Origin: Lachnospiraceae bacterium
GTDB lineage: Bacteria; Bacillota; Clostridia; Lachnospirales; Lachnospiraceae
DNA length: 64,000 bases
Assembly (NCBI GenBank): GCA_022799755.1
Contig: JAAWOU010000002.1
Location: forward strand, 43,454-107,453
Reading direction: 5' to 3'
The position numbers were made by a program, and so were the translations under genes. Numbering within the stretch: position 1 is the first letter of the stretch; every line of letters begins with the position of its first letter. Positions 33,670-52,737 of the stretch are shown one piece after another. The notes beneath the pieces were generated by a model that saw only the letters and a list, made by a program, of their open reading frames with translations, was not told the DNA's origin and ran no database searches.

Positions 33670-34005
33670 CTGTAATTATATCTATTTTTCCAGTGTATTG
33701 CAATGGATTTTTTGTATTTCTACAAAATTTGTGTTTTAAAACTCTGTATTGGCCGGGATTCTCCTGGAAACAGGGCGGGGCTGCAAAGCCTATATTTATA
33801 AAAAATGCACATAAACCCCTTTTAAAACATAATATATATAGAAAAGAATCGCTATATTTTGTGAGAAATTGCCAAAATTTAAAATATACTCCGTTTTATA
33901 TTGACATTATGCCTTGATAGAGATAATATTAATACATAAATTGTGTATATAAAAATTAAATACATAAAATATAAAGATAAAAATCGCAGACAAAGGAGTG
34001 GCAAC

Positions 34006-35736
34006 ATGCAGAAAAATTATCCAAGGCCGCAGTTATGCAGGGAAAACTGGAAAGACTTAAACGGGAAGTGGCGTTTTCTCTTTGACGATGAGGACAGAGG
34101 CGAAAGCAGGTGCTGGTACAAGGACGTGTTTTCGGACTACAGGGAGATCATAGTCCCCTTTTCCTATGAGACCCGGGCCAGCGGAATCGGGGACGGCAGG
34201 CTGCACCGGATAGTCTGGTACCAGAGGGATGTGGAGTGGGAGCCCTCCGGAAAGCGGACATTATTGCATTTCGAGGGCGTGGACTATGTGGCAAAGGTCT
34301 GGGTCAACGGCAGATGCGCCGGCAGCCACACAGGGGGCTATGCCAGGTTTTCCATGGACATCACCCCGTATCTTACGCCTGGGACCAACACCCTTACGGT
34401 CCGGGCACAGGACAGTGACAGCTGCGTTCAGCCCAGGGGAAAGCAGAGATGGAAGCGGGAGAATTTCGGCTGCTGGTATGTCCAGACCACGGGAATCTGG
34501 AAGACGGTGTGGATGGAGGAGGTGCCGGAGCATTATATCCAAACCATCAAGGTCACGCCGGATATTGACAGGGCCAGAGCGGTATTTTCCCTGACCCTGA
34601 ACCAAAAGCCCGAAGAACCTCTGGAGCTGGAATGCAGGATCCTGTACCAGGGCAGCTGCGTTTCCAGACAGAGGATCTGCGCGGAAGGACAGTCTGTGGC
34701 CTTTGAGCAGCCGGTATGCAATCCGGAGGAGCCATGGCAGGTGGAGTATTGGAGCCCCGGCCATCCCGCCCTTTACGATGTGGAGCTGACTTTGGAGGAC
34801 GGCAGGCAGCAGGACCGTGCGGACAGCTACTTCGGCATGCGCAAGATCTCCGCGGAGGGCGGGAAAGTGCTCCTGAACAACCGTCCCTTTTACCAGAGGC
34901 TGATCCTGGATCAGGGCTACTGGAAAGAATCCGGACTGACGCCGCCCTCGGAGGAGGCCCTGATCAGGGATATTGACCTGATTCTGCAGGCAGGCTACAA
35001 CGGCCTGCGCAAGCATGAGAAGATAGAGGACGAGAGGTTCCTGTACTGGTGTGACGTAAAAGGGCTTGTGGTATGGTGCGAGATGCCTTCCCAGTATACA
35101 TTCCACGATCGGGCCATGGAGACCTATGCCGTGCAGTGGATGGAGATTGTGAGGCAGAATTACAGCCATCCCTGCATTATCACCTGGACGGCTTTCAACG
35201 AAAGCTGGGGGATTGAGCATGTGTATACGGATGAGGCCCAGCAGAAATTTACCGAGGCGGTGTACCATCTGACCAAGGCTTTTGACGCCATGAGACCCGT
35301 GATCGTAAACGACGGGTGGGAGCATACGGTGTCCGATATCCTGACCCTCCATGACTACGAGGAGGACGCCCGGGCATTCAGGGACCGGTACGGGGACATG
35401 CAGGCTCTGGTGGAGAACCGGATTCCTTTTAATAAAGAAAGATATGCGCTGGCAAGAGGCTTTGTCTACCGGGGCCAGCCCGTGCTCCTAAGCGAGTACG
35501 GCGGCATCGCTTTCTCCACAGAGGAGGGATGGGGCTATGGCAGGCAGGCGGATTCCGAGGAGGCTTTCCTGAAGCGCTTCGGGGAGATGATGGAGGCCAT
35601 CAGGGACACACCTTATCTCACCGGATTCTGCTACACCCAGCTGACGGATGTGGAACAGGAGGTCAACGGCCTGTGCACCATGGAGCGGGAGCCGAAAGTG
35701 GATATGGACGAAATTAAGAAGATCAATATGCTCTAG
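34006..35736 (+). CDS. Glycoside hydrolase family 2 enzyme, cytoplasmic
   Basis: YPRPQLCRENWKDLNGKWRFLFDD...GVDYVAKVWVNGRCAGSHTGGY...TAFNESWG (acid/base E) and LLSEYGGIAF; no signal peptide. Confidence 0.92.
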   Translation: MQKNYPRPQLCRENWKDLNGKWRFLFDDEDRGESRCWYKDVFSDYREIIVPFSYETRASGIGDGRLHRIVWYQRDVEWEPSGKRTLLHFEGVDYVAKVWVNGRCAGSHTGGYARFSMDITPYLTPGTNTLTVRAQDSDSCVQPRGKQRWKRENFGCWYVQTTGIWKTVWMEEVPEHYIQTIKVTPDIDRARAVFSLTLNQKPEEPLELECRILYQGSCVSRQRICAEGQSVAFEQPVCNPEEPWQVEYWSPGHPALYDVELTLEDGRQQDRADSYFGMRKISAEGGKVLLNNRPFYQRLILDQGYWKESGLTPPSEEALIRDIDLILQAGYNGLRKHEKIEDERFLYWCDVKGLVVWCEMPSQYTFHDRAMETYAVQWMEIVRQNYSHPCIITWTAFNESWGIEHVYTDEAQQKFTEAVYHLTKAFDAMRPVIVNDGWEHTVSDILTLHDYEEDARAFRDRYGDMQALVENRIPFNKERYALARGFVYRGQPVLLSEYGGIAFSTEEGWGYGRQADSEEAFLKRFGEMMEAIRDTPYLTGFCYTQLTDVEQEVNGLCTMEREPKVDMDEIKKINML

Positions 35737-35760: not shown

Positions 35761-38637
35761 ATGAAGAGAGGAAGAAAATGGATTGTGCTGTGCTGCGCAT
35801 TTGTGTGCGGGGCTGTGGTTTTCTTCATTTCAGGCGTAAGGAAGGGCACACAGACAGCAGACCTGCAGCAGGCCATGGAGGCCATGGAAGAGCTTCTGTT
35901 TTCCCAGGACGGCATTGACACGGAGAATTACAAGAAATATATCGCCGGATACCAGTCGCAGGTCTACCAGGGAGAGGACATCCGTTTTGACTTAAGCGAA
36001 CTTCCTGAGGAGGAAAGGACGGCAGGCGCGAGAGAGGGGATGGACTTTCGGCTGGAGGTGGAGGAGGCCGGCCTGTATACGGTAGGCTTCCGCTACAAAT
36101 GCACCGGGGACAATATTCTCCAGACCAGTATGGCGCTTGCGTGCAACGGAGCCTATCCCTATGAGGAGCTGCAGCGCCTGTTCTTCCCGGATACCTGGGT
36201 CTCCGGAGAGAAGCAGTACGACCGGTATGGGAACGAATGCATCGCCATGCCCGGGAGGCAAAACGCCTGGAGCTTTACCTGGATGCGTGACATTTCCTTT
36301 TTGCAGAACGCGCCCCTTATGGTGTATTTAAATCAGGGGGAAAACGAATTTTCCCTGACGGCCAACGAGGGCAGCGTGGTCATCGAAGAAGTGGTGCTGG
36401 CGGCGCCTGTGAGCGTGGCCGGGGACGGGGAACAGACAGCCGCAGGCTCTGCCTGCATTGAGATTGAGGCAGAGGACTTTTGCTATCGGAACTCCCCCAA
36501 CATTCGCACAGAGAGCTCTTTCAATCCTGACGTCACTCCCTGCGACGGGACGCTGAAGCTTCAGAACGTGATCGAGGAGGCCTCCTTTCGGATCGGGGGC
36601 ACCAGCGTGTCCTATGAGGTGGAGGTGGATACGGAGGGGTACTATTATCTTGCCTTTGACTATCAGCAGAGCTCCAAATCCAATTTTACGGTGTACCGGA
36701 ATCTCTATATCGACGGTGCCATTCCCTCGGCTTCCTATGAGAACATAGGCTTTCCCTATACCAATGCCTATGAGCGCAAATGCCTGGAGGCGCCGGTGTA
36801 CCTGACGGCGGGAACCCACGAACTGACCCTTGAGGTGTCTCTGGCGCCCTATGGGGACGCGGTGGCCATACTGGACGCCATTGTAGCCAAGATCAATGAC
36901 ATGGCCCTGTCCGTGAACAAGATCACCGGAGGCAATACCAGCAAATACAGGGACTTTGACCTGGACGAGTATGACTTGGACATTGCGGGTAATCTAAGTG
37001 TCTGGGCGGACACCATAGAGCAGGTATACGGGATCCTGACCCGGGCGGACCAGTTCGGGGAGAAGAACGGGGAGATCAAGCTGCTGGACACTGCGGCGGT
37101 ATCCCTGCGGGAGCTGGCGGCAAAGCCCAATGAGCTGCCCCAGAATATCAACCGCTTCTCCTATGGGGACAGCTCGGTGCGCCAGTACCTGACCACAGTG
37201 TCGGAGAATCTCAGCATGGGAGACTGCTCTTTTGACAAAATCTATCTCTATCAGGAGGACGGGGCGCTTCCGGCCCGAAAAGGCTTTTTCGAAAAGCTTT
37301 CCCTGCGGGCGGAGCACTTCATCGCCTCCTTTACCCAGGATGACTATGCGCCCGGCTATGGGGACTCGGATACCCTGGAGATCTGGGTGAACCGGCCCAG
37401 GCAGTATCTGGAGATGATCCAGAGGATGGCGGATACGGACTTTACGGAGCGCACGGGCATCAAGGTGAACCTGTCTATTGTGCCGGACCAGCAGAAGCTG
37501 ATCCTGGCCAATGCCTCAGGGAAAGCTCCCGACGGCGCCATCGGCATCAGCGCAGGATATGTGTATGACCTGGCCGTGCGAAAGGCTTTGGCAGATTTGA
37601 GGCAGTTTGGGGATTTTAAGGAGGTGGGCAGGCGCTTCGCCCCGGGGATGCTGATTCCCGGCGTATGCGATGAGGGCGTCTACGCCATCCCGGAGACCTT
37701 TAACTTTTATGTCCTGTTCTACAGGACGGATATTTTTGAGAAATTAAATCTCCCTGTGCCGGACAATATGGATCAGGTCAGGGACCTGCTGCCGGAGTTA
37801 AACCGGATGGGGCTGGGCTTCAATACCCATGTGGCCAATCTGCCCACCAAGACCTTTGCCGCCACGGCGCCTTTCGTATTCCAGAGCGGCGGCAGTCTCT
37901 ACGAGGAGGGAGCCATGACCTGCAGGCTGGACTCGCCGGAGGTGATAGAGGGCTTTCGGTATCTCACGGAGAATTTCACGGTCTATGACATGGACTATGA
38001 GATTCTGAGCTTTTACCAGTCTTTCCGGGACGGCCGGACTCCCGTCGGCGTGTCCAACTACGGAACCTACAACCTGTTAACCAACGCTGCACCGGAGCTG
38101 AACGGCTGCTGGGACATTGCGCTGTATCCGGGGCTGGTGCAGGAGGACGGAACCGTAGACCGCTCCACCTCCGGGGCCGCGGAGAGCTGCGTGGTCTTCG
38201 AGGCCTCGGCGCAGAAGCAGGCTGCATGGGAATTCATCAGCTGGTGGATGTCCGATGAGGTACAGACGGAATTCTCCTTTATGCTCCAGGCTACCTTGGG
38301 CAATGAGTATATGTGGAACTCCGCCAACTTAAACGCCATTGCGGCAGCGCCCTGGAGCACCGACCACAAGAGGATCATCATGGAACAGCTTAGCTGGACC
38401 GACGAGATGCCTCCGGTGCCCGGAAACTATATCGTGGAGCGGGAAATGGGCAATGTGCTGGTGAATGTGGTGACATCCAATGTAAATCTGCGGACAGCCA
38501 TTGACGATGCCCAGAAGCGCATCAATGCGGAGCTTTTGCGCAAGCTGGAGGAATTCGGTTATATCGACGGCGGGGGGAACCGGAAGAAAGAGCTGGTCAT
38601 ACCGGACATAGAGACGATTGAGGGGTGGTTGGAATGA
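35761..38637 (+). CDS. Carbohydrate-binding-like domains fused to extracellular solute-binding protein (family 1), TM-anchored
   Basis: N-terminal TM ([20 protein letters not shown]); two jelly-roll-like regions (one IEIEAEDF...[26 protein letters not shown]); C-terminal SBP ([17 protein letters not shown]...[32 protein letters not shown]...[17 protein letters not shown]). Confidence 0.85.
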
Positions 38638-39524
38638 AGAAAAGGAGATTCAGGGTAAATGCTGCCGTATGGTTTCTGCTGCCGTATTTATTGATGTTCG
38701 TCACTTTCATCGTGATACCGGTGCTTGCGGCAATGGTTCTAAGCTTTACGAACTACGATGCGGTGCAGACGCCGAAGCCGGCGGGGTTCCTCAACTACAT
38801 CAATCTGCTGACCCAGGACGAGATCTTCATGCAGTATGTTCTGCCCAATACCTGTGTGTTCGCTTTCGTCGTGGGACCGGTGGGATATATGCTTTCCTTT
38901 CTGCTGGCATGGATGCTGGCCCAGATCAGCAAGGTGCCCCGGACCATCCTGGCCCTTTTGATCTACTCCCCCTCCATGACTTCAGGGGTGGCTATGGCGG
39001 TGGTCTGGAAAATCATCTTTGCGGGAGACCAGATGGGCTATGTGAATTCCCTGCTGATGAATTTAGGGATCACAAACCAGCCGATTCTCTTTACCTCCGA
39101 CGCGAGATTCCTGCTGCCCATTATGATCGTGGTATCTCTGTGGAGCAGTATGGGCGTGGGTTTTCTGGCCATCCTGGCGGGAATCCTGAATATCAATCCG
39201 GAGTACTATGAGGCGGCTGCCATAGACGGGATACGCAACAGATTCCAGGAGATTTTCTATATCACCATTCCCCAGATGAAGCCTCAGATGATGTTCGCGG
39301 CAGTGATGGCGGTGGTGAACACTTTTTCCGCCGGGGCCATAGGCGTGCAGCTAAGCGGCTCCAATCCCACGCCGGCCTACGCGGGACAGTTAATTGTGAA
39401 TCACATTGAGGACTACGGCTTTATCCGGTATGAGATGGGGTATGCGTCGGCGATTTCGGTGGTGCTGCTGGCAGGGGTCTACACCATTTCCAGGGTGGCC
39501 GGCAGAGTATTTCGAGAGGACTAA
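38634..39524 (+). CDS. Sugar ABC transporter permease (LplB/UgpA-like)
   Basis: Six [35 protein letters not shown] loop; ATG overlaps upstream TGA. Confidence 0.93.
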
Positions 39525-39538
39525 AGGAGGTGGGCTGT

Positions 39539-41578
39539 ATGAGGGTAAAAGGCAATCGAATCAGAAATGTCTTGCTGTGGGCGGTCTGCTTGTGCCTGTT
39601 AGGCTTCCCGATGGGGGTAAAGGCCCAGGGAGCCCCTTACACATCGCTCACCATAGACAAAGACGGCTACCCCGTGCGGACTGTGGACGGCTACATCCCG
39701 GGAGGACTCTGGGACAAGATCGGAGAGGAACAGCTTAAGAAGCCGTCGGATCTCTTTATCTCAAAAGAGGACGAAATGTACATAGCGGACACGGGAAACA
39801 GGCGGATTCTGGTATGCAGTCTGGAGGGGGAGTACCTAAGGGAGATCAGCCAGGGGCTGGAAGAGCCCGCGGGCGTATTCGTGACCGAAGAGGGTCTGGT
39901 CTATGTGGCGGATACAAAAGCCGGGAAAATCCTGGTGTTTGACAGGGAGGGCGCTTTGGTAAAGGAGTTCGGCACGCCGGTAAGCCCCCTGTTTGGCAAG
40001 TCGGCAAAGTACGCGCCCACCAAGCTGGTGGTAAACCGCTCCGGCACCATATACGCGCTGTCGGAGGGCAATGCGGAGGGAATACTGACCATTTCCGACT
40101 ATGGAGATTTCTACGGATATTTCGGCGCCAACGAGACTTATATGTCTTTGGCCAACCGCATCAGGCGGGCCCTGTTTACCGAGGAACAGTTAAAAAGCAT
40201 GCAGAAAAGCGTTCCTCCCTCCGCCTGCAATATCGACATGGACAGCACGGGCCTGATTTACACAGTGACCCAGGGGTCGGAGGGGGACGGCCTGAAGAAA
40301 TTCAATATGGCCGGAAACAACATGCTCGGCGATATTTTCGTGGATACTTTGGTGACGGATGTGGCGGTGGGAAGCATTGACAATATCTTCGCCGTATCCA
40401 AACAGGGATACATTTACGAGTACACCAGGGACGGAGAGCTGCTGTTCCATTTCGGCGGCACCGACGACGGCAACAATCGGATGGGCCTGTTCACCACGGC
40501 CCAGGCCATTGAGGCGGACTCCCGAAACCGTCTGTACGTGCTGGATTCCGGAAGAGGAGACATTACCGTCTTCCAACCGACGGAGTATGCGGACACGGTC
40601 CATCAGGCCCTGGCGCTGTACCAGGAGGGACTTTACACCGAGAGCAGGGAACCCTGGGAGAGGGTGCTAAGGCAAAACGGCCTGTTTGACTATGCCTACC
40701 GGGGCATTGCCCAGGCCCAGTACAAGCTGGAGGACTACGGAGGCGCCATGGAGGCGGCCAGGCTGGGCGGAGCGGGAGATACCTACTCCAGCGCATTCTG
40801 GCAGATCCGCAACCGGTGGCTGAGGGACCATATTGTGGCAGTGTTCTGGATCCTGCTTGGGCTTGTCTGTCTGGGAAAAATATGGCGCAGATGGGGAGAC
40901 CGGATTCCGGTTATCCGCAGGATTCGCGCAGGTCTGCGCTTTCTGGGCCGTACCAGAGGCGTAAGAGAACTTGGATTTCTGCGCTATGTGATCAAGAACC
41001 CGGCGGATGCTTTCTACGGCATCAAGCATGAGGGAAAGGTGTCCGTGGCCACGGCCACAGCGGTATATCTGCTGTTTTTCCTGCTGTTCGTGGCAGGCAA
41101 ATACGGCAGCGGCTTTCTCTTCAAGACAGTGCCGGACGGGCAGTATGACATCGGAGGGGACATGGTCCGCACCCTGGGGGTCATGATTTTGTTCGTGGTC
41201 TGCAGCCATATGATCTGTTCCATCCGGGACGGAGAGGCCACCCTGAAGCAGAATTACTGCGCTTTTATATACTGCTTCATGCCATATCTGTTCCTGAAGC
41301 CCGCGGCATTTGCGCTGAGCCATGTACTTACCTACAATGAAAGCTTCCTGATCGGCATGCTGAACTTTATCATGGTGGCGGGGACGGGGATTTTGATCTA
41401 TTTCTGTATCAAGGAGATACAATGCTATACCTACAGGGAGACCTTTATCAGCATCTTCCTGACATTGTTCACCATGTTGATCGTGGCGGCGGCAGGCTTT
41501 ATCCTGTTTGCGCTGATGCGGCAGGTATGGGATTTCGCCATAGGGATTTATAAGGAGGTGTACTACCGTGGCAGATAG
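39539..41578 (+). CDS. NHL-repeat beta-propeller + TPR-like + Yip1-like membrane domain protein
   Basis: Signal peptide; NHL repeats (KKPSDLFISKEDEMYIADTGNRRILVCSLEGEYLREI..., EEPAGVFVTEEGLVYVADTKAGKILVFDREG); helical repeat ALALYQEGLYTESREPWERVL; TM-rich C-terminus with NPADAFYGIKHEGKVS. Confidence 0.8.
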   Translation: MRVKGNRIRNVLLWAVCLCLLGFPMGVKAQGAPYTSLTIDKDGYPVRTVDGYIPGGLWDKIGEEQLKKPSDLFISKEDEMYIADTGNRRILVCSLEGEYLREISQGLEEPAGVFVTEEGLVYVADTKAGKILVFDREGALVKEFGTPVSPLFGKSAKYAPTKLVVNRSGTIYALSEGNAEGILTISDYGDFYGYFGANETYMSLANRIRRALFTEEQLKSMQKSVPPSACNIDMDSTGLIYTVTQGSEGDGLKKFNMAGNNMLGDIFVDTLVTDVAVGSIDNIFAVSKQGYIYEYTRDGELLFHFGGTDDGNNRMGLFTTAQAIEADSRNRLYVLDSGRGDITVFQPTEYADTVHQALALYQEGLYTESREPWERVLRQNGLFDYAYRGIAQAQYKLEDYGGAMEAARLGGAGDTYSSAFWQIRNRWLRDHIVAVFWILLGLVCLGKIWRRWGDRIPVIRRIRAGLRFLGRTRGVRELGFLRYVIKNPADAFYGIKHEGKVSVATATAVYLLFFLLFVAGKYGSGFLFKTVPDGQYDIGGDMVRTLGVMILFVVCSHMICSIRDGEATLKQNYCAFIYCFMPYLFLKPAAFALSHVLTYNESFLIGMLNFIMVAGTGILIYFCIKEIQCYTYRETFISIFLTLFTMLIVAAAGFILFALMRQVWDFAIGIYKEVYYRGR

Positions 41579-43736
41579 AAGATACAGGCTCCTGGGGGCA
41601 ATAACGGCGGCCGTGCTCTGCTTTTTTGCCGCACCCGTCCATGCGCGGGCCGGCGGGTCGGAAAGCGTACACCAAAACCTGCCCGGGGAGAAGCCGGACA
41701 TGGGAAACGAGAGATATCAGCTGCTTTTGGACGAAGAGACTCTGGGCATTACGGTTCTGGATAAGGCGTCCGGGGAGGACTGGAAAACCGTGCTGGACTA
41801 TACGGAGGGCAACGAGATCTGGAACGGCCTGTGCAATTCCGGAATCACTCTGGAATTCTACCAGGGAGGCTCTACGATTCCGGTATCCGTATCTGTGTAT
41901 AACGAAAAACCGGACTTGGAAATTTCTTATTATGAGGACGGCTTTGACGCCGATCTGCACTATGAGGCTTACGATTTCCGGATGCGGCTACAGGTTCGGA
42001 TAGAGGATGACGCTCTGAGCGTCTTCGTTCCGGGGGAATCCATAGAGGAGGGGGAGGAATATCTGCTGGGCGCAGTCTGGCTCTACCCTATGTTCGGTGC
42101 GAACGCTCCCGGGGAGGAAGAGGGATACATGGTCATCCCCGAGGGCGCGGGCGCCACCATTGACCTGGCGGATAATCACGGAAAATTCAAGACGCCTTAC
42201 ACCAAGCGGATTTACGGCAGCAATGTGGGCATAGATCCCATTGCCGCCAGCCGGTACAATGTGCCCGTGGTGACAGAGCCCCAGACCATATCCCTGCCCG
42301 TGTGGGGGATGGTGTACACAGGCAAAGAGAGGGGCTTTTTGGGAATCATTACGGACGGAGAGTATAACGCGCAGCTTCTGGCCTATCCAAACGGCGTGAC
42401 CACGCCCTACAACTGGGTCAGCGCCAAATTCCTGGTCCGGGAGATCTACACCCGCCAGACAGCCAAATCCAGCGGCGTCCCTGCCGTGGAGAGCAAAGGG
42501 GACATCCGGGATATGGGGGTGCGGTATCTGTTCGCGGACGGGGAGGAGGCAGACTACGCGGGGCTTGCAAAGGCCTATCAGACCTATCTGGCGGCACGGG
42601 GAATCCTTGGCAGACAGGAGGATGCTTTCCGGATCAAGCTGGATTTTCTGGGGGCGGACTCCAAAAAGTGGTTTCTTTTCAACCAATTGGTGCCAATGAC
42701 CACTTTGGAGGATATGGATGAGATTCTGGAGGAACTGGAGAGCCGGGGCGTCCGGGACGTGATGCCCGTATACTTTGGATGGCAGAGGGACGGAGCCACC
42801 AGATCCCTTGGAAGCGGGGATTTCCGGATCGCTCCCGGCCTGGGCTCCGCAGAGGAACTGGAGCGGCTGATGGAAAAATGGGACAGAAAAGGGAGCGGAC
42901 TTGTCTTACACCAGGATTTCCTGCTGGCCTGCACGGACAGGCTCTACAATACCTCCACGGATATCGTCAAGTCCGTGAGCCAGACGCTGGTAGAGATCCC
43001 CACCAACCAGAAGCTGTTCAAAACCATGTACTATATGACGCCGCTCAGAACGGCCCGGATGATGGAGCGCTTTACGAAACAGTATAGGGACACGGTTCTG
43101 TCCCATGTAAGCATAGAGGGTGTGACGGACAATCTGTATTCCTACTATTCCTCCGGCGTGACCTATACCAGGGAGGAATGCGCCAGGCAGCAGATGCAGG
43201 CCCTGGAGGAGCTTACCTTTGCCCGGATCGGAATGACCGCTCCCAATGTGTACCTGTGGGAGGATATGGCGGAGTATTACGATATGCCCATGACCACCTC
43301 CAAGTACAATATGATCGATAAGGAGATTCCTTTCCTGCCCATGGTGCTGCGGGGGTATGTGCCCTACTGGGCGTCCTATACCAACTTTGAAGCCAATGAA
43401 AAGGAGTTCTTCCTGAAGCTTTTGGAATACGGGGCCTATCCTGCATTCCTCCTGACCAAGGAACCGCCGGTGGAGCTGCGCAACACCAACTCCTCCTATA
43501 TCTACACTTCCGAGTTCTCCGTGCTGGAGGAAAAGATCCTGCGGTATGACAGAGAGATCGGGGAGGTCCTGCGGCAGGTGGAGGGAGCGGGCATCACAGC
43601 CCATGCGTATCTCACGGACCGGGTGGTCAGGGTGGAATATGAAAACGGAGTCAAGCTTGTGATCAATTATGGAGACGGGGATTATGCGTACCGGGGCGAG
43701 AGCATTCCCGCCTGCTCATATAGCCTGATTCAGTAG
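41568..43736 (+). CDS. DUF5696-like secreted protein
   Basis: Signal peptide; NERYQLLLDEETLGITVLDKASGEDWKTV...VIPEGAGATIDLADN...; glycosidase-like fold hints; sits between NHL-Yip1 and permease genes. Confidence 0.7.
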   Translation: MADRRYRLLGAITAAVLCFFAAPVHARAGGSESVHQNLPGEKPDMGNERYQLLLDEETLGITVLDKASGEDWKTVLDYTEGNEIWNGLCNSGITLEFYQGGSTIPVSVSVYNEKPDLEISYYEDGFDADLHYEAYDFRMRLQVRIEDDALSVFVPGESIEEGEEYLLGAVWLYPMFGANAPGEEEGYMVIPEGAGATIDLADNHGKFKTPYTKRIYGSNVGIDPIAASRYNVPVVTEPQTISLPVWGMVYTGKERGFLGIITDGEYNAQLLAYPNGVTTPYNWVSAKFLVREIYTRQTAKSSGVPAVESKGDIRDMGVRYLFADGEEADYAGLAKAYQTYLAARGILGRQEDAFRIKLDFLGADSKKWFLFNQLVPMTTLEDMDEILEELESRGVRDVMPVYFGWQRDGATRSLGSGDFRIAPGLGSAEELERLMEKWDRKGSGLVLHQDFLLACTDRLYNTSTDIVKSVSQTLVEIPTNQKLFKTMYYMTPLRTARMMERFTKQYRDTVLSHVSIEGVTDNLYSYYSSGVTYTREECARQQMQALEELTFARIGMTAPNVYLWEDMAEYYDMPMTTSKYNMIDKEIPFLPMVLRGYVPYWASYTNFEANEKEFFLKLLEYGAYPAFLLTKEPPVELRNTNSSYIYTSEFSVLEEKILRYDREIGEVLRQVEGAGITAHAYLTDRVVRVEYENGVKLVINYGDGDYAYRGESIPACSYSLIQ

Positions 43737-43748
43737 GGAGGTGGTCCA

Positions 43749-44699
43749 ATGAAAGGATTTCAAGGGAAGAAAAAAGTGCCTGCCGCGGCGGGCAAAGGAA
43801 GCGGGCGGCATCTGACCATGTCCCGGAAGAAGAGCCTGGTAGGGCTGCTGTTCGTGACGCCGTGGCTGGCGGGGTTTTTCGTCTTCTTTGCCTCTCCGCT
43901 GCTGCAGGCCGTAAACTATAGCCTGAACAAGGTGACTATCACGGCCACGGGCAGGAAGATGACCTATGTGGGGATTGGGAACTATCAGGATATTTTCCTA
44001 AAGGACGCCTATTTCGTGGACAGACTGCTGAATTTTTTAAAGGAGATTATCCTGCAGCTGCCGTTGATACTGGTATTCTCTCTGGTGATCGCCATTCTGC
44101 TCAATCAGTCCGTGAAAGGGAAAGGGATTTTCCGGACCCTGTTCTTTCTGCCCATCATCGTGGTCAGCGGACCCGTGATGCAGATGCTGATCAGCTCCGG
44201 CTCCACCACCATTCCGCTGATAGAGCAGTACGGGCTCTACGAGATGATAGAGGAGACGGTGCCGAAGTTTCTCAGAGAGCCTGTCACGGGACTGTTTGGC
44301 GAGCTGCTGCTGATCTTATGGTATTCCGGCGTGCCTACCCTGATCTTTCTGGCGGGGCTGCAGAAGATCGATACCACGCTGTACGAGGCGTCCTATATGG
44401 ACGGAGCTTCCTCCTGGGTGGCATTCTGGAAGATCGTGCTTCCCTCCATCCGGGGCATGATCCTGATCAACAGCATTTATGTGACGGTGTTCCTGGCCAC
44501 CTCGGAGCTGAACGAGGTCATTGACCTGATTCGCAGCAATATGCTAAACGCCAGCAAGGGATTCGGCATTGCCTCTGCCATGGCGTGGCTCTACACCATA
44601 TGCATCCTGGTCATCATCGGTCTGTGCTACGCGCTCTTCGGCCGGACCCGGGACGGGGAGAAGCCGAAAAAATCCGGCGGAAAGGGGCGGAAACCATGA
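43749..44699 (+). CDS. Sugar ABC transporter permease
   Basis: Six TM; TTLYEASYMDGASSWVAFWKIVLPSIRGMILIN EAA loop. Confidence 0.93.
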   Translation: MKGFQGKKKVPAAAGKGSGRHLTMSRKKSLVGLLFVTPWLAGFFVFFASPLLQAVNYSLNKVTITATGRKMTYVGIGNYQDIFLKDAYFVDRLLNFLKEIILQLPLILVFSLVIAILLNQSVKGKGIFRTLFFLPIIVVSGPVMQMLISSGSTTIPLIEQYGLYEMIEETVPKFLREPVTGLFGELLLILWYSGVPTLIFLAGLQKIDTTLYEASYMDGASSWVAFWKIVLPSIRGMILINSIYVTVFLATSELNEVIDLIRSNMLNASKGFGIASAMAWLYTICILVIIGLCYALFGRTRDGEKPKKSGGKGRKP

Positions 44700-45670
44700 A
44701 AAAGAAATTTGCGGGCCACTATGCTTCCCTGCGGGCAAGGCTTGTGGGGAGGCCCGGCCACAGAGGGTGGCTGTTCAAGGCAATGATCTATGTGCTGCTG
44801 GTGTCCATCGGATTCGTATATCTGTATCCGGTGCTGAGCATGTTCGTCACCAGCCTCATGGGGCTTCCGGATCTGCTGGACGCGGCGGTGAAATGGGTGC
44901 CCACGGCAGTGACCCTGGACAATTACAGAGAGGCGCTGGATGTGATGCGGGTGAAAGAGACCCTGATCAACTCCGTGGTGGGAGCCCTGCTGCCGGCCCT
45001 GGCCCAGACGGCGGTGTGCGCCCTGACGGGGTATGGTCTTGCCAGATACCAGGTGCCGCTGAAAAAGCTGATCATCGGACTGCTCATCGTCACATTCGTA
45101 GTGCCGCCCTATGTGCTGCTGGTGCCCAATTACGTCATGTTCTCCGATTACGGGCTGCTGGGGACTTTGAAGACGCTGATCTATCCGGCCATGCTGGGAC
45201 AGGGGATGAAAAGTGCGATCTTTGTGCTGATCTTCATGCAGTTCTTCCGCCAGACCCCGCTGTCTTTGGACGAGGCGGCCCGGGTGGACGGCGCGGGCGA
45301 GGCCAGGATCTTTTTCGGGATCGCGGTACCCCTGGCAGTGCCGGCGTTTATCATCAGCTTCCTGTTTTCCTTTGTGTGGTATTGGAACGAGACCTATTTC
45401 ACCGCCCTGTATTTAAACGGGAACAATATCGGGGATACCACAAAGGTCAGCACCATGCTGCTGGAACTGCAGAATTTCGACGCCATGTACAAGCAGCGGG
45501 TTCAGCAGGTGGCAAGCTGGGGTGCTTCCGTCATGGGGGAATCCGTGGCCAATGAGGCCGTTAAGATGGCGGCCACGGTGATCACCATTCTGCCTCTGCT
45601 GATTTTATACTTCTGTCTCCAGAAGTATTTCGTGGAGGGAATCGACAGAACCGGTATCACCGGCGAATAG
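44696..45670 (+). CDS. Carbohydrate ABC transporter permease (UgpE-like)
   Basis: LSLDEAARVDGAGEARIFFGIAVPLAVPAFI EAA loop; start overlaps the upstream stop (ATGA). Confidence 0.93.
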   Translation: MKKKFAGHYASLRARLVGRPGHRGWLFKAMIYVLLVSIGFVYLYPVLSMFVTSLMGLPDLLDAAVKWVPTAVTLDNYREALDVMRVKETLINSVVGALLPALAQTAVCALTGYGLARYQVPLKKLIIGLLIVTFVVPPYVLLVPNYVMFSDYGLLGTLKTLIYPAMLGQGMKSAIFVLIFMQFFRQTPLSLDEAARVDGAGEARIFFGIAVPLAVPAFIISFLFSFVWYWNETYFTALYLNGNNIGDTTKVSTMLLELQNFDAMYKQRVQQVASWGASVMGESVANEAVKMAATVITILPLLILYFCLQKYFVEGIDRTGITGE

Positions 45671-45818: not shown

Positions 45819-47306
45819 ATGAAAAGAACCAAGAAAGCAATTGCGTTGGCATTGGCAATGTCCCTGACGGCGGCCGCGGCAGGCTGCGGGAATTCCGACT
45901 CCGGAAGCGCTGCTTCGGATAGCCGGGAGAGCAAATCCCAGGAGAGCAAAGCGCCCGAGGGCGCAGAGGGCGGGGAAGAACAGAGCCCGGAGGCAGCCGC
46001 CCAGGGAGAGGACGGGGCAGAGAGCGTACAGGGCGAGAGCGGACTTCCGCCCATGACCGAGGAGGAGATCACCCTGACTTATGCCTGCTGGGGCCTTGCG
46101 GAAAAGGGAGAGATTGAGGCAAAGGATAAGCAGATCGAGGCTTTCGAGAAAGCCTATCCCAATATCCATGTGGAGTTCGTCACCATCGACCAGGCCACCT
46201 GGGACGACAGTCTGACCTCCATGGCTGCCACGGGAAGCCTGCCGGACGTGTTCTGGGTATTCAGCGCCACCAATGCCGTGGCCAATGAATGGGCCCTGGA
46301 TGTGACGGACTATTACGAGGCGGATCCGGACGCAAGGGAAGTATACCCGGAGATGGTGGAGAACGCCAAATTAAACGGCAGGCTCTACTGCATGCCCACG
46401 GTCATGTTCCCGTACCTGGTATTTTTGAACAAGACATACTTTGAGAAGTACAATGAGCCCCTGCCCTCCTATGACTGGACCATGGATGAGTTCAAGGAGA
46501 TCGCGGAGAGGATCACCCATCCGGAGGAGTTTTACTTCGGTACCTCCAATCCGAACTACATTGACTACTTCCCGGCGCTGTACGAGGGATATTCCAACAG
46601 AGGCTGGGACGGAGAGGAGTATCATTTTGACCAGGTATGGGTGGATGCCCTGAACCTGAAGTATGACTGGATCGACGACGACACTCTGGAGTGGGAGTCC
46701 GCGGAGGATAAGCTGCGTTACTTAGGCGATGAGGGCGCATGGCCTCCGGCATTCGGAAGAAGCGCCATGCACTTTGACTGGAGCTGGACCATTGCGGCCT
46801 TTGAGGATGCCTACACGGCCCAGTCCGGCTGCGAATTCCTGTATTACCCCCAGCCCGCCGGCCCCTCCGGGGCAGAGATGGCCGTGGTGGACTACGGCGT
46901 GATCTCCGCTGCCACAGAGCATCCCAGGGAGGCATGGGAACTGCAGAAATGGACCTCCTGGGGCAAGGAGGGCGTGCTGAACCGCTATGAGGGGTATAAG
47001 CAGGCAGGGCTCACCGCAATTTCCCGTATGCCGGTCACAAGCAACAGCGAAGCCTGGGCTGCGGTGAAAAGTTTTACGGACAGGGAGGACTTCTTAGCCC
47101 TCTACGATCATCTGGAGAAGACCAACATCGTCTCCAGCACCACCAGCGTAGCGCCGGGTTACAATGAGATGACTACCTGGATGGATGAGAACGGGATCTG
47201 GGGAAAACTGGACAGCCGGGAGGTCTCCCCTGCGGATGTGGCCGCGGAGCTTACCCAGAAAGCCAATGAATTAAAGGATGAATGGCTGGCGAATCATGTA
47301 AAGTAA
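45819..47306 (+). CDS. Extracellular sugar-binding lipoprotein (ABC SBP)
   Basis: Lipobox LTAAAAGCGN; KQIEAFEKAYPNIHVEFVTIDQATWDDSLTSMAATGSLPDVFWV; strong RBS AAAGGAGG. Confidence 0.95.
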   Translation: MKRTKKAIALALAMSLTAAAAGCGNSDSGSAASDSRESKSQESKAPEGAEGGEEQSPEAAAQGEDGAESVQGESGLPPMTEEEITLTYACWGLAEKGEIEAKDKQIEAFEKAYPNIHVEFVTIDQATWDDSLTSMAATGSLPDVFWVFSATNAVANEWALDVTDYYEADPDAREVYPEMVENAKLNGRLYCMPTVMFPYLVFLNKTYFEKYNEPLPSYDWTMDEFKEIAERITHPEEFYFGTSNPNYIDYFPALYEGYSNRGWDGEEYHFDQVWVDALNLKYDWIDDDTLEWESAEDKLRYLGDEGAWPPAFGRSAMHFDWSWTIAAFEDAYTAQSGCEFLYYPQPAGPSGAEMAVVDYGVISAATEHPREAWELQKWTSWGKEGVLNRYEGYKQAGLTAISRMPVTSNSEAWAAVKSFTDREDFLALYDHLEKTNIVSSTTSVAPGYNEMTTWMDENGIWGKLDSREVSPADVAAELTQKANELKDEWLANHVK

Positions 47307-47315
47307 ATCGGGTCA

Positions 47316-47345
47316 TGCCCTGCCGGTGGCTGTGCCGGCAGGGCA
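47316..47345. repeat. Strong intra-operon hairpin after the SBP2 gene
   Basis: TGCCCTGCCGG (47316-47326) / CCGGCAGGGCA (47335-47345), perfect 11 bp; no T-tract. Confidence 0.8.
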
Positions 47346-47362
47346 CAGAAAGGGAGGTTGTC

Positions 47363-48226
47363 ATGAAAGGTGTTACCATCAATCCGAAAGGCTTCCATAA
47401 GGGACAGATTAAATTCTACGTGGTGCTGATCCCCCTTGCGCTGTTCATGGCGCTGCCCATTGTCTATATTATCAGTCATGCCTTTAAGCCGCCAAGCGAG
47501 CTGTTCGCGTTTCCCCCCAGGTTCTTCGTAAAGTCTCCCACCGCGGACAATTTCCGGAATCTGGCCAAGGTATCCGGAGGCTCGGTGGTATCCGTGGGCA
47601 GATATGCCTTTAACAGCATTCTGGTGACGGTGTCGGTGGTGTGCGCCAACATGGTGGTGGGCTCCATGGCGGGTTTTGCCCTGTCCAAGCTGGACTTTAA
47701 GGGGAAGAAAGTTCTCTTTGAGATCAATACCCTGTCCATGATGTTCGTGCCGGCAGCGGTGCTGATTCCCAGATACCTGGTCATGGACAGAATCCATATC
47801 ATGGACACGTATTTCGCCCATATCCTGCCACTGCTTGCCATGCCCGTGGGAATGTTTCTGGTAAAGCAGTTTATCGACCAGGTGCCGGACGAGCTCATCG
47901 AGGCGGCGGTGGTGGACGGGGCGAATAAGTTCACCATATACAGAATCGTGATCCTGCCCCTGATCAAACCGGCCCTGGCCACGGTGTGCATCCTGTCTTT
48001 CCAGCAGGTCTGGGGGAATCTGGAGACCTCCAACATGTTCACCACCAAAGAGAGCATGCGGACGCTGGCGTTTTTCATGAATACGCTGATCAATGCCAAT
48101 GCCTCCGTGGCGGGACAGGGAATCTCCGCTGCCGCGGCGCTTATTATGTTTGTGCCGAATATCGTCCTGTTCATCATTCTCCAGAGCAATGTGATGAACA
48201 CTATGGCATATTCGGGAATCAAGTAA
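47363..48226 (+). CDS. Carbohydrate ABC transporter permease
   Basis: Six TM; DELIEAAVVDGANKFTIYRIVILPLIKPALATV EAA loop. Confidence 0.93.
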   Translation: MKGVTINPKGFHKGQIKFYVVLIPLALFMALPIVYIISHAFKPPSELFAFPPRFFVKSPTADNFRNLAKVSGGSVVSVGRYAFNSILVTVSVVCANMVVGSMAGFALSKLDFKGKKVLFEINTLSMMFVPAAVLIPRYLVMDRIHIMDTYFAHILPLLAMPVGMFLVKQFIDQVPDELIEAAVVDGANKFTIYRIVILPLIKPALATVCILSFQQVWGNLETSNMFTTKESMRTLAFFMNTLINANASVAGQGISAAAALIMFVPNIVLFIILQSNVMNTMAYSGIK

Positions 48227-48260: not shown

Positions 48261-50789
48261 ATGGGGAAGAGGAGAATGAAAGGCATGGGAGGGGCTGCCC
48301 TGGTTCTGGCCTGGACTCTGACGGCAGGTTTGTGCGCCTGCGGGGATGAGGATGCCGGGCAGCGAAATGATACGGCGCGAAACGGCGGGGCCCGGACAGA
48401 GACTTTAGCCACGGAATCGGAGGAGACAATGGAAAGGATAAGCTATCTGCAGAACCCCATTTCCGGCGTCAGGGAGGACACCTGGTATGACTACGGTACC
48501 GGGGATCCTTTTGTGATGCGGTACAATGGGGCGTATTATCTGTACATGAGTACAAGGGACACGGAGAGCGGGGTGAAATGCTTCCGCTCGCGGGATCTGG
48601 TAAACTGGAGCTATCAGGGGCTGTGCTGCACGGAGGAGATCACAAAGGGAGCCTACGCCCCGGAGGTGGTGTACTACAACGGCAGCTTCTACATGTACAC
48701 CTCCCCGGCAGGAAACGGGCATTATGTGTTAAAGAGCGACTCCCCCACGGGACCGTTTCTGAAAGATTCGGATAATTTCGGGCTGTCTATAGACGGCTCT
48801 GTCTTCATAGACGACGACGGAAAATGGTATTTTCTCCACGCCGGAGACAACTGCATCCTGGCAAACGAGATGACGGCGCCCAACGAGGTAAGCCCGGTGT
48901 CCAAATCCACCAACACCTCCATGGGAGGCTGGACGGAAGGGGCCATGACCGTCAAACATGACGGCCGTTACTATATGACTTATACGGGGAATCATGTGTT
49001 CAGCAAAGGATACCGCATCAACTACGCGGTGGGAGACAGCTTCGCAAATGTGGCTCCCTCGCCGGACAATCCGGCCCTGGTCCATACCCTGGGGGAGACT
49101 TACGGCATCGGACACAGCTCCACGGTAAAGGGCCCGGATCTGGACAGCTATTATATCGTATACCATACTTTGACGGGACGCGCCAGGGAGGGCATGCCCA
49201 AACGGGAGATGAATATAGACAGAATTGTCTTCAACGGGGACAGGATGGAGATCCTGGGACCTACGGTCACGGAGCAGCAATTCCCTGACTTTCCGGAGAT
49301 TTACGCCTGGTTTGAACAGGGGGAAGATCTGGCGGGCTGGGAGATACAGGGAGAGGGTGCGGTGACAGAAGACGCCGGGACCGGAGGAGCGCTGCATTTG
49401 ACAGCCGGGAGCCGGATCCTGAGCAAAGAGTCTCTGGGGGACGAATTCACGGCAGAGTACAATTTGCGCTCCCCGGACGGATGCGGCCGGATAGGAGGCT
49501 ATTTCCACTACATGGACGAGGACAATTACGGAGCCTTTGAGATCGACTTAGGCAGCGGAGAAGTCCGGGCCGTTACCGTGGAGGCAGGCAAGGCCGCAAG
49601 GCAGGAGATGACATTGCCGGAGAGCTTCGGGGAGCCTGCGGACTTCGGGGTGAACCAGACCTTTCAGGTGGAGAAGAAAAACGGCGTGTATACCCTGTAT
49701 TTTCAGGACAAAGCGCTGGGGACTTTCCGGTGCGGGCTGCAGGCGGGGGCGTTCGGGTACTTTGCGGAGGGCTGCGAGGCTGTCTTCGGGTACATCGGAG
49801 CCAGTGGCGCTGCGGGCGGAGACAGCGCCTGTACCTATGAGAAGCCTCTGCCCGGGAGGGTCCAGGGGATCCATACCTGCAATCTGTCCGGTCAGGCCCG
49901 GCCCGGGGAGGGGATCGAGGGAAGCCAAAGCCTGTTCCTCGGCGCTGAGGGCAGCTACGGGGAGTATCGGGTGAGAGTGGAGGAGGACGGACTTTACAAT
50001 TTCTCCGTGCTGTATGCGGCGGAGACGGACGCGGCGTACGATATTTACCTGGACGGGACGGCGCTTCTAAGCCAGGCGGCGCCGGCGCCCGGGACCCAGG
50101 GGGATTACCGCACCGCCTGTCTGCAGGCCCTGAAGCTGGAAAAAGGGACCCACACCCTGAGGCTGGAAGTGCGCCGGGGCGCCCTGGCCGTATCCTCGTT
50201 TACGGTCTCTCCCTATGAAGAGGTGGAGGAGCTTGTGGTGGAATATGAGGTCATGGCGGACGATGCGCTGCTCTATTCCGACGGCACATGGCGGATACAG
50301 GACGGGGTCTTAAAGCTGACGGATCCCTCCAGGCCTGTGGGAAAGCGCCTGTATGGAAGCGAAGCTTACGGGGATTACGCGGCGGAGGCGGATATTACGC
50401 CGCTGGACGAGGACATGGATATAGGCATTCTGTTCCGGGCGGGGAATCCCGCCAAGGGAGGCGCCGGGGACGACGCGGTCAAAGGGACTTATTTTGTCCA
50501 GGGATATTACGCGGGGATGACCCGAAACGGTCTCTGCCTGCTGAAGATAAACTACGGGCGGGAAGAGCTAGCAAAGGTACCCATGGAGTTTGCCGCAAAT
50601 GAGACATATCATATGAAAGTGGAGGCGGAGGGCTGCAGGATACGCGTCTACATCGGGGACAGACTCTGCCTGGAATATGAGGACCAAGAGAGGCCTTTCC
50701 TCTGGGGAAGCGCGGGAGTGAGGGGGTTTCTGTGCGAAGCACAGATCGACCGTTTCCGGATAGCGGGGCCAGACCGAAATCCCAAGTAA
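48261..50789 (+). CDS. Surface lipoprotein glycoside hydrolase family 43 with C-terminal sugar-binding/LamG-like domains
   Basis: Lipobox LTAGLCACGDE; YDYGTGDPFVMRYNGAYYLYMST, GAYAPEVVYYNGSFYMYTSP; CBM6-like EYRVRVEEDGLYNFSVLYAAE...KLEKGTHTLRLEVRRG. Confidence 0.88.
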   Translation: MGKRRMKGMGGAALVLAWTLTAGLCACGDEDAGQRNDTARNGGARTETLATESEETMERISYLQNPISGVREDTWYDYGTGDPFVMRYNGAYYLYMSTRDTESGVKCFRSRDLVNWSYQGLCCTEEITKGAYAPEVVYYNGSFYMYTSPAGNGHYVLKSDSPTGPFLKDSDNFGLSIDGSVFIDDDGKWYFLHAGDNCILANEMTAPNEVSPVSKSTNTSMGGWTEGAMTVKHDGRYYMTYTGNHVFSKGYRINYAVGDSFANVAPSPDNPALVHTLGETYGIGHSSTVKGPDLDSYYIVYHTLTGRAREGMPKREMNIDRIVFNGDRMEILGPTVTEQQFPDFPEIYAWFEQGEDLAGWEIQGEGAVTEDAGTGGALHLTAGSRILSKESLGDEFTAEYNLRSPDGCGRIGGYFHYMDEDNYGAFEIDLGSGEVRAVTVEAGKAARQEMTLPESFGEPADFGVNQTFQVEKKNGVYTLYFQDKALGTFRCGLQAGAFGYFAEGCEAVFGYIGASGAAGGDSACTYEKPLPGRVQGIHTCNLSGQARPGEGIEGSQSLFLGAEGSYGEYRVRVEEDGLYNFSVLYAAETDAAYDIYLDGTALLSQAAPAPGTQGDYRTACLQALKLEKGTHTLRLEVRRGALAVSSFTVSPYEEVEELVVEYEVMADDALLYSDGTWRIQDGVLKLTDPSRPVGKRLYGSEAYGDYAAEADITPLDEDMDIGILFRAGNPAKGGAGDDAVKGTYFVQGYYAGMTRNGLCLLKINYGREELAKVPMEFAANETYHMKVEAEGCRIRVYIGDRLCLEYEDQERPFLWGSAGVRGFLCEAQIDRFRIAGPDRNPK

Positions 50790-50828: not shown

Positions 50829-50858
50829 GAATATGGTACAATGGACTGTACCATATTC
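50829..50858. promoter_or_regulatory. 12-bp perfect dyad overlapping the promoter of the TCS/ABC operon
   Basis: GAATATGGTACA-ATGGAC-TGTACCATATTC; contains putative -10 TACAAT with TTGGCA 18 bp upstream. Confidence 0.7.
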
Positions 50859-50876
50859 CCCGGAGGAGGCGATTGG

Positions 50877-51554
50877 ATGGACACTGTATTTTTGTTGGAG
50901 GACGATGAGGCCATGTGCCGGGGCATTGCTCTGGCCCTGGTCGGCCCGGAGCGGACCGTGGTCTGTGCCGAAACGCTGCAGAAAGGAAGAGAGATTCTCC
51001 GCACAGGAGAGTTTCAGCTGGCGATTCTGGACGTAAATCTCCCGGATGGCAGCGGCCTGGAGCTTTTAAAGGAAAGCAAGAGCCGGTATCCGGATCTCCC
51101 CGTGATCCTCCTCACCGCAAATGACGGGGAGATTGACCAGGTCACGGGCCTGGAGGCCGGGGCGGACGACTATATTACCAAGCCTTTTTCCCTGGCGATT
51201 CTGCGGGCAAGAGTGAATGCCCAGCTGCGCAGGAAAGGCACGGAAAGAAAGGCGATCTGGGAGATGGAGCCTTTTTTGTTTGACTTTGGACGAATGGATT
51301 ACCGGAGGGAGGGCAGACCCATCGACCTGAGCAAAACGGAACAGCGTCTCCTGCGGGTTCTGGTGGAGAATCAGGGGCATGTGGTTCCACGGGAGACCCT
51401 GCTGGACAGAGTCTGGACGGACGGAGCGGAATATGTGGACGAAAACGCCCTGTCGGTGACGGTGAAGCGGCTGCGGGGCAAGCTGGAAGAGAATCCGTCC
51501 CAGCCCAGATGGCTGCGGACAGTCTACGGAATCGGATATATCTGGGAGATATGA
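50877..51554 (+). CDS. OmpR-family response regulator
   Basis: VFLLEDDEAMCRGIALAL...LAILDVNLPDGSGLELLK...KPFSLAILRARVNAQLRRK; wHTH ENALSVTVKRLRGKLEE. Confidence 0.95.
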   Translation: MDTVFLLEDDEAMCRGIALALVGPERTVVCAETLQKGREILRTGEFQLAILDVNLPDGSGLELLKESKSRYPDLPVILLTANDGEIDQVTGLEAGADDYITKPFSLAILRARVNAQLRRKGTERKAIWEMEPFLFDFGRMDYRREGRPIDLSKTEQRLLRVLVENQGHVVPRETLLDRVWTDGAEYVDENALSVTVKRLRGKLEENPSQPRWLRTVYGIGYIWEI

Positions 51555-51582
51555 AAGCGAAGTAGGGAGGCGAGAAATCGAG

Positions 51583-52512
51583 ATGAATCTTTGGCTTGGC
51601 CTGATTGCCGTTATATGCAGCGCGGCGGGAGTCTTGGCGCTGCTCTGCGCCCGGTTATCTGTCCGCCGTTCTAATCTGCGGCTGGAAGAGATGCTGGAGG
51701 CGGCCATGGGGGGGACTTTCCGGGAAAAGAGCTTCAGCGAGGATGTACACTCTGTCACGGAGGCCCGCATGGCTCAGTATCTGGCCTCCAATCAACTTCA
51801 CATCCGGAGGCTGGAGGAGCAGTTGGCTCAGATCAGCGGCCTCCTTTCGGATATTTCCCACCAGGCCCGCACGCCCATGACCAATATCAGTCTCTATGCC
51901 CAGCTTCTGGAGGAGCAGGAGCTGTCCGGGGAGGGCCGGAACCTGGCGGCAGAGCTGGAACGGCAGACGAACAAATTACAGGGCCTGATTGAGGCATTGG
52001 TGCAGTCTTCCCGCCTGGAATCAGGCCTGCTGGTGCTCCATCCCGTCCACGGAGATCTCTCCGCCGCCGGAGCGCGGGCTGCAGAGCAGTACAGGAGCCG
52101 GGCGGAGGAGAAGAGGATTTCCATTGTCCTGGAACTGTGCACGGCTCCTGCCGTGTTTGACGAAAAGTGGACCGAGGAGGCTGTCTGCAATCTGCTGGAC
52201 AATGCCGTGAAGTATACGCCGGAAGGGGGATGTATTACGATTCGCAGTCAAAGCTACGAGCTGTTTTCCAGAATCGATATCGCCGACACAGGCCCCGGCA
52301 TTCCGGAGGAGGAGCAGGCGAAGATTTTCGGGCGGTTCTATCGAGCCTCGGGAGCCTGGAAGCAGGAGGGAATCGGGATCGGCCTCTATCTCACCCGCAA
52401 GATACTGGCCGGCCAGGGGGGCTATGTGAAAGTGAGCAGCGCCCCTGGCCGGGGGAGCACTTTCTCCGTGTTTCTGCCGAAACTTTCGGAGCATTCCGAG
52501 AGGCACACATGA
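51583..52512 (+). CDS. Sensor histidine kinase
   Basis: LLSDISHQARTPMTNISLYAQLLEE; LLDNAVKYTPEGG; DTGPGIPEEEQAKIFGRFYR. Confidence 0.95.
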   Translation: MNLWLGLIAVICSAAGVLALLCARLSVRRSNLRLEEMLEAAMGGTFREKSFSEDVHSVTEARMAQYLASNQLHIRRLEEQLAQISGLLSDISHQARTPMTNISLYAQLLEEQELSGEGRNLAAELERQTNKLQGLIEALVQSSRLESGLLVLHPVHGDLSAAGARAAEQYRSRAEEKRISIVLELCTAPAVFDEKWTEEAVCNLLDNAVKYTPEGGCITIRSQSYELFSRIDIADTGPGIPEEEQAKIFGRFYRASGAWKQEGIGIGLYLTRKILAGQGGYVKVSSAPGRGSTFSVFLPKLSEHSERHT

Positions 52513-52661
52513 GCGCCGAAGAACTGCAGGCCCTGAAGAGCATCCATGGCCGGGAAGCAGAGAGAGAACGGCGCCTGCAGCCGGCGGAAGCCCTGCAGAA
52601 ACGCAAGTTTGCTCCACAGGCTGTCCGAACAGTCACAATATGACAGTTCCGTTATATTTCA

Positions 52662-52707
52662 GAAAGATCCCGGAAAGATTTCTCTGCTATAGTAAGTATG
52701 TTATAAT
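52662..52707 (+). promoter_or_regulatory. Direct repeat and -10 upstream of the ABC gene (activated-promoter layout)
   Basis: GAAAGAT 52662-52668 and 52673-52679 (period 11); TATAAT 52702-52707 with poor -35. Confidence 0.5.
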
Positions 52708-52737
52708 GCAGATATTCGATTCGGAGGTATATGGAAA

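Follow-up and report, generated by a model that had tools for sequence, protein, structure and literature searches.

A 64,000-nucleotide stretch of a Lachnospiraceae bacterium genome (GenBank assembly GCA_022799755.1, contig JAAWOU010000002.1, positions 43,454 to 107,453; hereafter the window) contains a sugar-transport gene cassette that includes an NHL-Yip1 fusion protein and a DUF5696 protein. In our reading, which we hold at a probability of about 0.55, this cassette encodes a scaffolded variant of a CUT1-type ATP-binding cassette (ABC) importer that captures oligosaccharides at the cell surface and has no ATPase of its own. Its genes in the window are as follows (SBP, solute-binding protein; HMM, hidden Markov model).

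35761..38637, + strand: SBPbig, a 958-amino-acid SBP with an N-terminal anchor (SBP_bac_8, E = 2e-19; cassette HMM, 1124 bits)
38625..39524, + strand: MalF1, a CUT1-type permease with the EAA coupling loop EAAAIDG (BPD_transp_1; 444 bits against the MalF1 cassette HMM and 60 against that of MalF2)
39530..41578, + strand: NHL-Yip1 fusion (Pfam NHL, SGL and Yip1; cassette HMMs, NHL 532 and Yip1 259 bits)
41568..43736, + strand: DUF5696, a secreted protein predicted to have a GH129 fold, with the GH129 acid/base unconserved (PF18952, E = 5e-164)
43749..44699, + strand: MalF2, a CUT1-type permease of the second pair, EASYMDG (BPD_transp_1; MalF2 cassette HMM, 376 bits)
44696..45670, + strand: MalG1, a CUT1-type permease of the second pair, EAARVDG (BPD_transp_1, E = 1e-17; MalG1 cassette HMM, 389 bits)
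45819..47306, + strand: small SBP, a lipoprotein (SBP_bac_1, E = 1e-19; SBPsm cassette HMM, 50 bits; lipobox AAAGC read from the sequence)
47282..48226, + strand: MalG2, the partner of MalF1 (417 bits against the MalG2 cassette HMM and 96 against that of MalG1)

These genes are close-packed or overlapping, by 11 bp between NHL-Yip1 and DUF5696 and by 13 bp between the SBP and permease genes; Shine-Dalgarno positions favour ATG 39539 as the start of NHL-Yip1 and ATG 44696 as that of MalG1. An earlier note on this DNA had described two large non-transporter proteins lying in tight or overlapping array between permease genes, and the coordinates, the 11-bp overlap and the Pfam matches bear this out. 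The interval it gave, 38634-45670, was right in content and too narrow as a frame: the unit also takes in 35761-38637, 45819-47306 and 47282-48226. Its single importer has accordingly to be replaced by two permease pairs with two SBPs. The window copy is rearranged, in that MalG2 sits behind the second SBP, while in relatives it lies between MalF1 and NHL.

To place the cassette, loci were collected from relatives within the order, from an evenly drawn sample of the phylum, and as 80 named loci chosen by DUF5696 similarity alone, and were annotated with profile HMMs. The named loci were retrieved with a five-sequence canonical DUF5696 subset, the full 17-sequence alignment being too divergent, and are biased towards one clade. 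The order SBPbig–MalF1–MalG2–NHL–Yip1–DUF5696–MalF2–MalG1, usually with a small SBP in addition, was complete in 90 of 118 loci in a six-frame search (68/80 named, 13/18 order and 9/20 phylum loci), and most incomplete loci are interrupted by contig ends. An apparent loss of MalG2 from several loci in the annotation based on open reading frames (ORFs) was an artefact of ORF choice, which the six-frame search ruled out. The small SBP usually follows MalG1; in Paenibacillaceae it precedes SBPbig instead. Median intergenic spacing within cassettes is -4 to +15 bp, and the cassette ranges from Paenibacillus to gut Lachnospiraceae.

The components also travel together. Among 200 genomes drawn evenly from the phylum, searches for DUF5696 and for NHL match the identical 16, an outcome with a probability of 6e-24 under random placement if genomes are taken as independent, which related genomes are not. 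Homologues do not lie mostly outside sugar ABC loci: in 114 of 116 loci DUF5696 has an ABC permease no more than 1.5 kb away, and Yip1 is equally close to it in 114 of 116. Of the four misses, three fall at contig ends and one is a true split locus. This gene-neighbourhood survey, together with the co-occurrence, places the two proteins with the importer, as the earlier note had proposed. Between any two of the eight components, distances over 88 loci correlate at 0.90-0.97, from which we conclude that paralogous cassettes are inherited as units; the distances are most alike among SBPbig, MalF1 and MalG2 on the one hand and among NHL, DUF5696, MalF2 and MalG1 on the other. Conservation between copies is highest for MalF1 and MalG2, and DUF5696 and Yip1 rank near the bottom, as might be expected if the latter two adapt to the substrate.

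Five DUF5696 genes are present in the genome of the window, each with an NHL-Yip1 homologue directly upstream, and a sixth NHL/Yip1 pair lies at a contig end. Immediately upstream of another of these copies, a 925-amino-acid protein (L055:182-2959) matched no Pfam family. Elsewhere, six genomes of two families, 2.1-3.0 Mb in size (G095, G117, G137, G156, G191 and G220; loci L185-L193 and L198), carry several to many NHL-Yip1-DUF5696-MalF2-MalG1-SBPsm modules each, with no SBPbig-MalF1-MalG2 in cis, which suggests that the first half is shared. In genome G040 the operon is split at Yip1/DUF5696 into SBPbig-MalF1-MalG2-NHL-Yip1 (L064) and DUF5696-MalF2-MalG1-SBPsm (L063), a natural experiment on the independence of the sub-modules; in L200 the two halves stand in reversed order.

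The DUF5696 protein of the window, described earlier as a secreted DUF5696-like protein, matches the family over its full length (positions 5-612 of 612; 547.6 bits against a cut-off of 25.6). Searched against the PDB as a single sequence, it returned chance EF-hand matches only; the family profile retrieved the glycoside hydrolase (GH) family 129 enzymes ZgGH129 (E = 8e-12) and NagBb (E = 1e-7). A comparison of its predicted structure with glycoside hydrolase folds, which the earlier note had proposed, was then carried out. The AlphaFold2 model (pLDDT 83.1, pTM 0.88) had ZgGH129 (5opq) as its top Foldseek match (E = 3e-33, template-modelling (TM) scores 0.64/0.69), followed by NagBb (E = 3e-27) and then by GH101, GH31 and GH36; against 5wzr the TM scores were 0.64/0.73. 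On this model, DUF5696 is a remote GH129-type glycosidase fold and not a new fold.

Catalytic columns were mapped by profile-profile comparison via two true GH129 proteins, L073 and L074, which align with NagBb end to end. In NagBb, we take D435 to be the nucleophile and E478 the acid/base. The PDB title of the ZgGH129 D486N Michaelis complex agrees with a catalytic Asp in the nucleophile strand. Around the acid/base (residues 553-563 of the window protein), acidic residues occur in at most 16 of 57 sequences at any one column, and in 13 at the column that aligns best; the GH129 acid/base is not conserved in any DUF5696 clade. The nucleophile column holds R in canonical DUF5696, the sister clade of that in the window, with an adjacent D in 41 of 51 sequences; in the window clade, E or D stands one position earlier, followed by G or A, and the window protein offers only a shifted E517 as counterpart. 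DUF5696 has Y or T where GH129 has its O4-binding D330, and R/Q or V/F in place of the metal ligands H320 and D322. Canonical DUF5696 retains the pocket-like residues H412, D448, D526, D584 and E620; the majority of these are gone from the window clade, which lacks 412, 448, 518 and 526. We conclude from the alignment and the model that DUF5696 is GH129-like in fold and would not be a standard GH129 enzyme; in the window clade it is probably a glycan-binding pseudo-enzyme.

The strongest competing explanation, which we nevertheless consider unlikely, is that DUF5696 represents a new GH129-related family of active glycosidases or transglycosylases and works on the membrane side, trimming captured oligosaccharides before import with NHL-Yip1 as its scaffold. 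The whole GH129 fold is present, canonical sequences mostly keep the acids at 359, 448, 518, 526, 584 and 620 as well as H412, in those 41 of 51 D518 coincides with or adjoins the nucleophile position, and the loci abound in exo-acting enzymes. Set against this are the scarcity of acids around the acid/base, the replacement of D330 and of the metal ligands and, in the window clade, the further loss of 448, 518, 526 and 412. Of the roles entertained earlier, that of a glycan-handling enzyme thus gains a recognisable GH129 fold, and is less likely than glycan binding in the window clade because the GH129 catalytic pair is not conserved. L073 and L074, which had appeared as weak DUF5696 matches and possible cassette members, were ruled out as such: they are 63% identical to each other, and these NagBb-like enzymes (L073:8914-10797 and L074:9371-11287) adjoin sulfatase-like genes in related genomes.

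The NHL-Yip1 protein consists of a signal peptide, a six-bladed NHL propeller (residues ~40-350), TPR-like helices (352-413), a transmembrane segment and a five-transmembrane Yip1 domain (~487-681). Pfam recognises both NHL (E = 1e-8, 35.2 bits against a cut-off of 20) and Yip1 (E = 6e-10, 39.7 bits against 28.6), and the AlphaFold2 model (pLDDT 81.9, pTM 0.68) shows the signal helix, propeller, TPR-like helices, one transmembrane helix and Yip1 bundle; Foldseek matched the model to the NHL domain 6d69 (E = 2e-14, TM score 0.76 on the target). The architecture first described, a secreted propeller joined by helical repeats to a Yip1-like transmembrane domain, is therefore upheld, the repeats by helices 352-413 and a weak TPR_16 match. 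Nine of ten standalone Yip1 relatives match the Yip1 family (PF04893) above the cut-off, and the hydrophobic segments and the model accord with five transmembrane passes.

The fusion itself is not the type form. In most relatives NHL and Yip1 are two genes with a 4-bp overlap, which is the canonical arrangement; the fusion occurs in the window clade and in several further clades. On a DUF5696 tree (FastTree, with some composition and long-branch warnings), the fused or split state switches about six times, at least five of them on well-supported branches. Repeated fusion of neighbouring genes usually marks interacting proteins, and these changes argue for a physical partnership. Since by the transmembrane layout the propeller lies outside the cell and Yip1 begins on the inner side, split and fused forms would share one topology.

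This receptor-like layout of extracellular propeller and multi-transmembrane domain could also suit a glycan sensor or regulator, formed by NHL-Yip1 and DUF5696, that reports substrate beside two ordinary importers; a two-component system is encoded 3' of the locus in the window, and LacI regulators flank canonical loci. We find this improbable. No recognisable cytoplasmic signalling domain was found in NHL-Yip1 by Pfam or in the AlphaFold2 model, the regulators differ between loci while NHL, Yip1 and DUF5696 are constant, and the genes for these three lie inside the permease run and overlap permease genes. Equally improbable is that two independent ABC importers share an operon by chance with NHL, Yip1 and DUF5696 as unrelated passengers: each permease pair does have its own SBP and intact EAA loops, and one genome has its operon split (L064/L063), but both halves of that operon are retained, and we reject the idea because of the co-occurrence, in fixed order across many families and with the same genome distribution, and the repeated fusion.

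The transport components are of familiar kinds. All four window permeases are BPD_transp_1 proteins with an EAA loop (MalF2 relatives carry a variant EAA), and both SBPs are of family-1 or family-8 type (SBP_bac_1, SBP_bac_8). SBPbig has two N-terminal regions resembling carbohydrate-binding module (CBM) family 35, a helical linker and a C-terminal SBP domain. With its family profile, the second CBM35-like region matched the CITase CBM35 5x7g (E = 2.5e-9) and the SBP domain 5ysb (E = 9e-36), the first region giving a weak match (E = 0.004); scattered CBM_35, Golvesin_C and GH115_C matches occur among SBPbig relatives. No ATPase was found among the cassette genes of the locus, and two MalK-like proteins are encoded on other contigs of the same genome. 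Most C. phytofermentans transporters come without an ATPase gene of their own and are believed to draw on a common, MsmX-like ATPase (PMC4452783). We infer that a shared MsmK/MalK-type ATPase encoded elsewhere serves the cassette.

With regard to substrate, the families most often represented in 85 genes flanking canonical cassettes are GH26 (15), CBM35 (12), GH130 (10), CBM65 (9), LacI (8-9), GDSL esterases (6), GH2 mannosidase (5) and DUF624 (5), GH113 (2) also being present, and a GH26, GH130 or GH2 mannosidase gene lies within 10 kb in 50 of 80 loci; the L. phytofermentans cassette, for example, adjoins GH26-CBM35, DUF624, a CBM65 protein, GH130 and an esterase. Because their flanks are so rich in mannan enzymes, the canonical sister clade very probably serves beta-mannan. 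Since similarity to a single canonical DUF5696 was the basis on which the 80 loci were picked, the link to mannan concerns that clade only. The arabinan, xylan and host glycans proposed earlier were guesses, and the context of the sister clade indicates beta-mannan instead. In Lachnospiraceae mannan loci, secreted proteins of ~640 amino acids with repeated CBM65 domains (L090:14620-16548 and equivalents; 9 of 85 flanking proteins) lie between MalG1 and SBPsm and probably give the mannan version an additional protein for binding glycans at the surface. The flanks of the window cassette hold two enzyme genes.

33943..35736, + strand: cytoplasmic-looking GH2-family glycosidase (Pfam Glyco_hydro_2_N, E = 7e-20; Glyco_hydro_2_C, E = 5e-13)
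48261..50789, + strand: GH43 enzyme with CBM6 and a concanavalin-like C-terminal domain (GH43, E = 7e-41; CBM_6, E = 6.5e-7; 3keto-disac_hyd, E = 3.5e-9)

The best NCBIfam match of the former is beta-glucuronidase, under the cut-off. This pair stands in place of the enzyme set of a beta-mannan locus; at L056, also of the window clade, the neighbours are GH35, GH88 and a glycoamylase-like protein. Judged by these neighbours, the window copy probably serves another, plant-type glycan.

In the importer that we propose, the cassette would encode one surface glycan-import system. Its CUT1-type permeases would form two pairs, MalF1/MalG2 and MalF2/MalG1, with one SBP each. Both pairs would be powered by an MsmK/MalK-type ATPase from elsewhere and be held together by a scaffold of which Yip1 is the membrane part and the NHL propeller the outer part. 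SBPbig and DUF5696 would form an outer capture layer, in which SBPbig grips chains via its CBM35-like modules and DUF5696 binds chain ends in its GH129-derived pocket, non-hydrolysing at least in the window clade, before oligosaccharides are passed to the SBPs. Paralogous cassettes would serve different glycans, and those of the canonical sister clade beta-mannan. Several observations weigh against this. Two pairs with two SBPs could be two co-regulated importers. Nor does every locus encode the whole complex: SBPbig-MalF1-MalG2 is missing in cis from many cassettes in the paralogue-rich families f67 and f82, where eight or nine loci have only NHL-Yip1-DUF5696-MalF2-MalG1-SBPsm in cis and SBPbig lies elsewhere in the same genomes. 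The co-divergence of the components largely mirrors common descent. Finally, the canonical clade keeps acids near 448, 518, 526, 584 and 620, and DUF5696 may be an enzyme there, and E517 of the window clade adjoins the nucleophile position.

A bolder form of the proposal, which we advance tentatively and at somewhat less than even odds, is a physically joined two-pair complex on an NHL-Yip1 scaffold, supplied by a GH129 barrel that has been repurposed and no longer cuts; this complex would handle beta-mannan in plant-degrading and gut bacteria, be duplicated for other glycans, and be the Bacillota counterpart of SusCD-type capture.

Two further loci in the window deserve mention. A response regulator, histidine kinase, ABC ATPase and FtsX-type permease at 50841-56159 resemble, as read from the sequence, a separate peptide-sensing or resistance unit adjoining the glycan locus. 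At 17897-18760 on the - strand, a gene amid housekeeping genes resembles, on the same basis, the Rpn-type (PD-(D/E)XK) transposase/nuclease family.

How Gram-positive fibre degraders, which have no outer membrane or SusCD, capture long glycans at their surface is largely an open question, for which the cassette supplies a defined set of partners: NHL, Yip1, DUF5696, a CBM-bearing SBP and two permease pairs. DUF5696, a family with no assigned function, gains a predicted fold and a context; the canonical copies predict a substrate, beta-mannan; and the link of the Yip1 family to ABC transporters is extended from exporters to importers. The assembly is apparently undescribed, as had been supposed: no description of the cassette and no mention of DUF5696 was found in the open-access literature, subscription papers and preprints lying outside the search.

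Among known systems, SusC/SusD of Bacteroidota couples surface glycan capture to import and is outer-membrane and TonB-dependent; it works as is proposed for the cassette, with unrelated proteins. GH129 (NagBb 5wzn, ZgGH129 5opq) and GH101 share the whole predicted fold of DUF5696, by AlphaFold2 and Foldseek, and are remotely homologous to it in sequence, whereas DUF5696 is only ~12-14% identical to them, does not conserve the acid/base, O4-binding Asp or metal ligands, and is membrane- or lipid-anchored or secreted, always adjoining ABC permeases. In the YknWXYZ system of Bacillus, a Yip1-family protein, YknW, is likewise encoded with an ABC transporter, YknXYZ, and modulates its assembly (PMC4887032), a precedent by analogy for an assembly role of Yip1 here. 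YknXYZ is a MacB-type peptide-toxin exporter with a membrane fusion protein and has no NHL propeller, DUF5696 or SBP; conversely, neither a MacB-like permease nor a membrane fusion protein was found among the cassette genes. The beta-mannan loci of Roseburia intestinalis resemble cassette loci as Gram-positive mannan loci with GH26, GH130 and an ABC importer, the transporter being described as one SBP and two permeases with NHL or Yip1 unmentioned (PMC6385246). The closest likeness is to CUT1-family importers with a shared ATPase (MalFG/UgpAE/MsmK type), which have the same permease fold, EAA loops and SBPs and no ATPase in the locus. The cassette differs from them in its two permease pairs and two SBPs, one of ~1000 amino acids with CBM35-like modules, and in three extra subunits (NHL, Yip1 and DUF5696), and we therefore classify it as a CUT1-type importer with new obligate partners.

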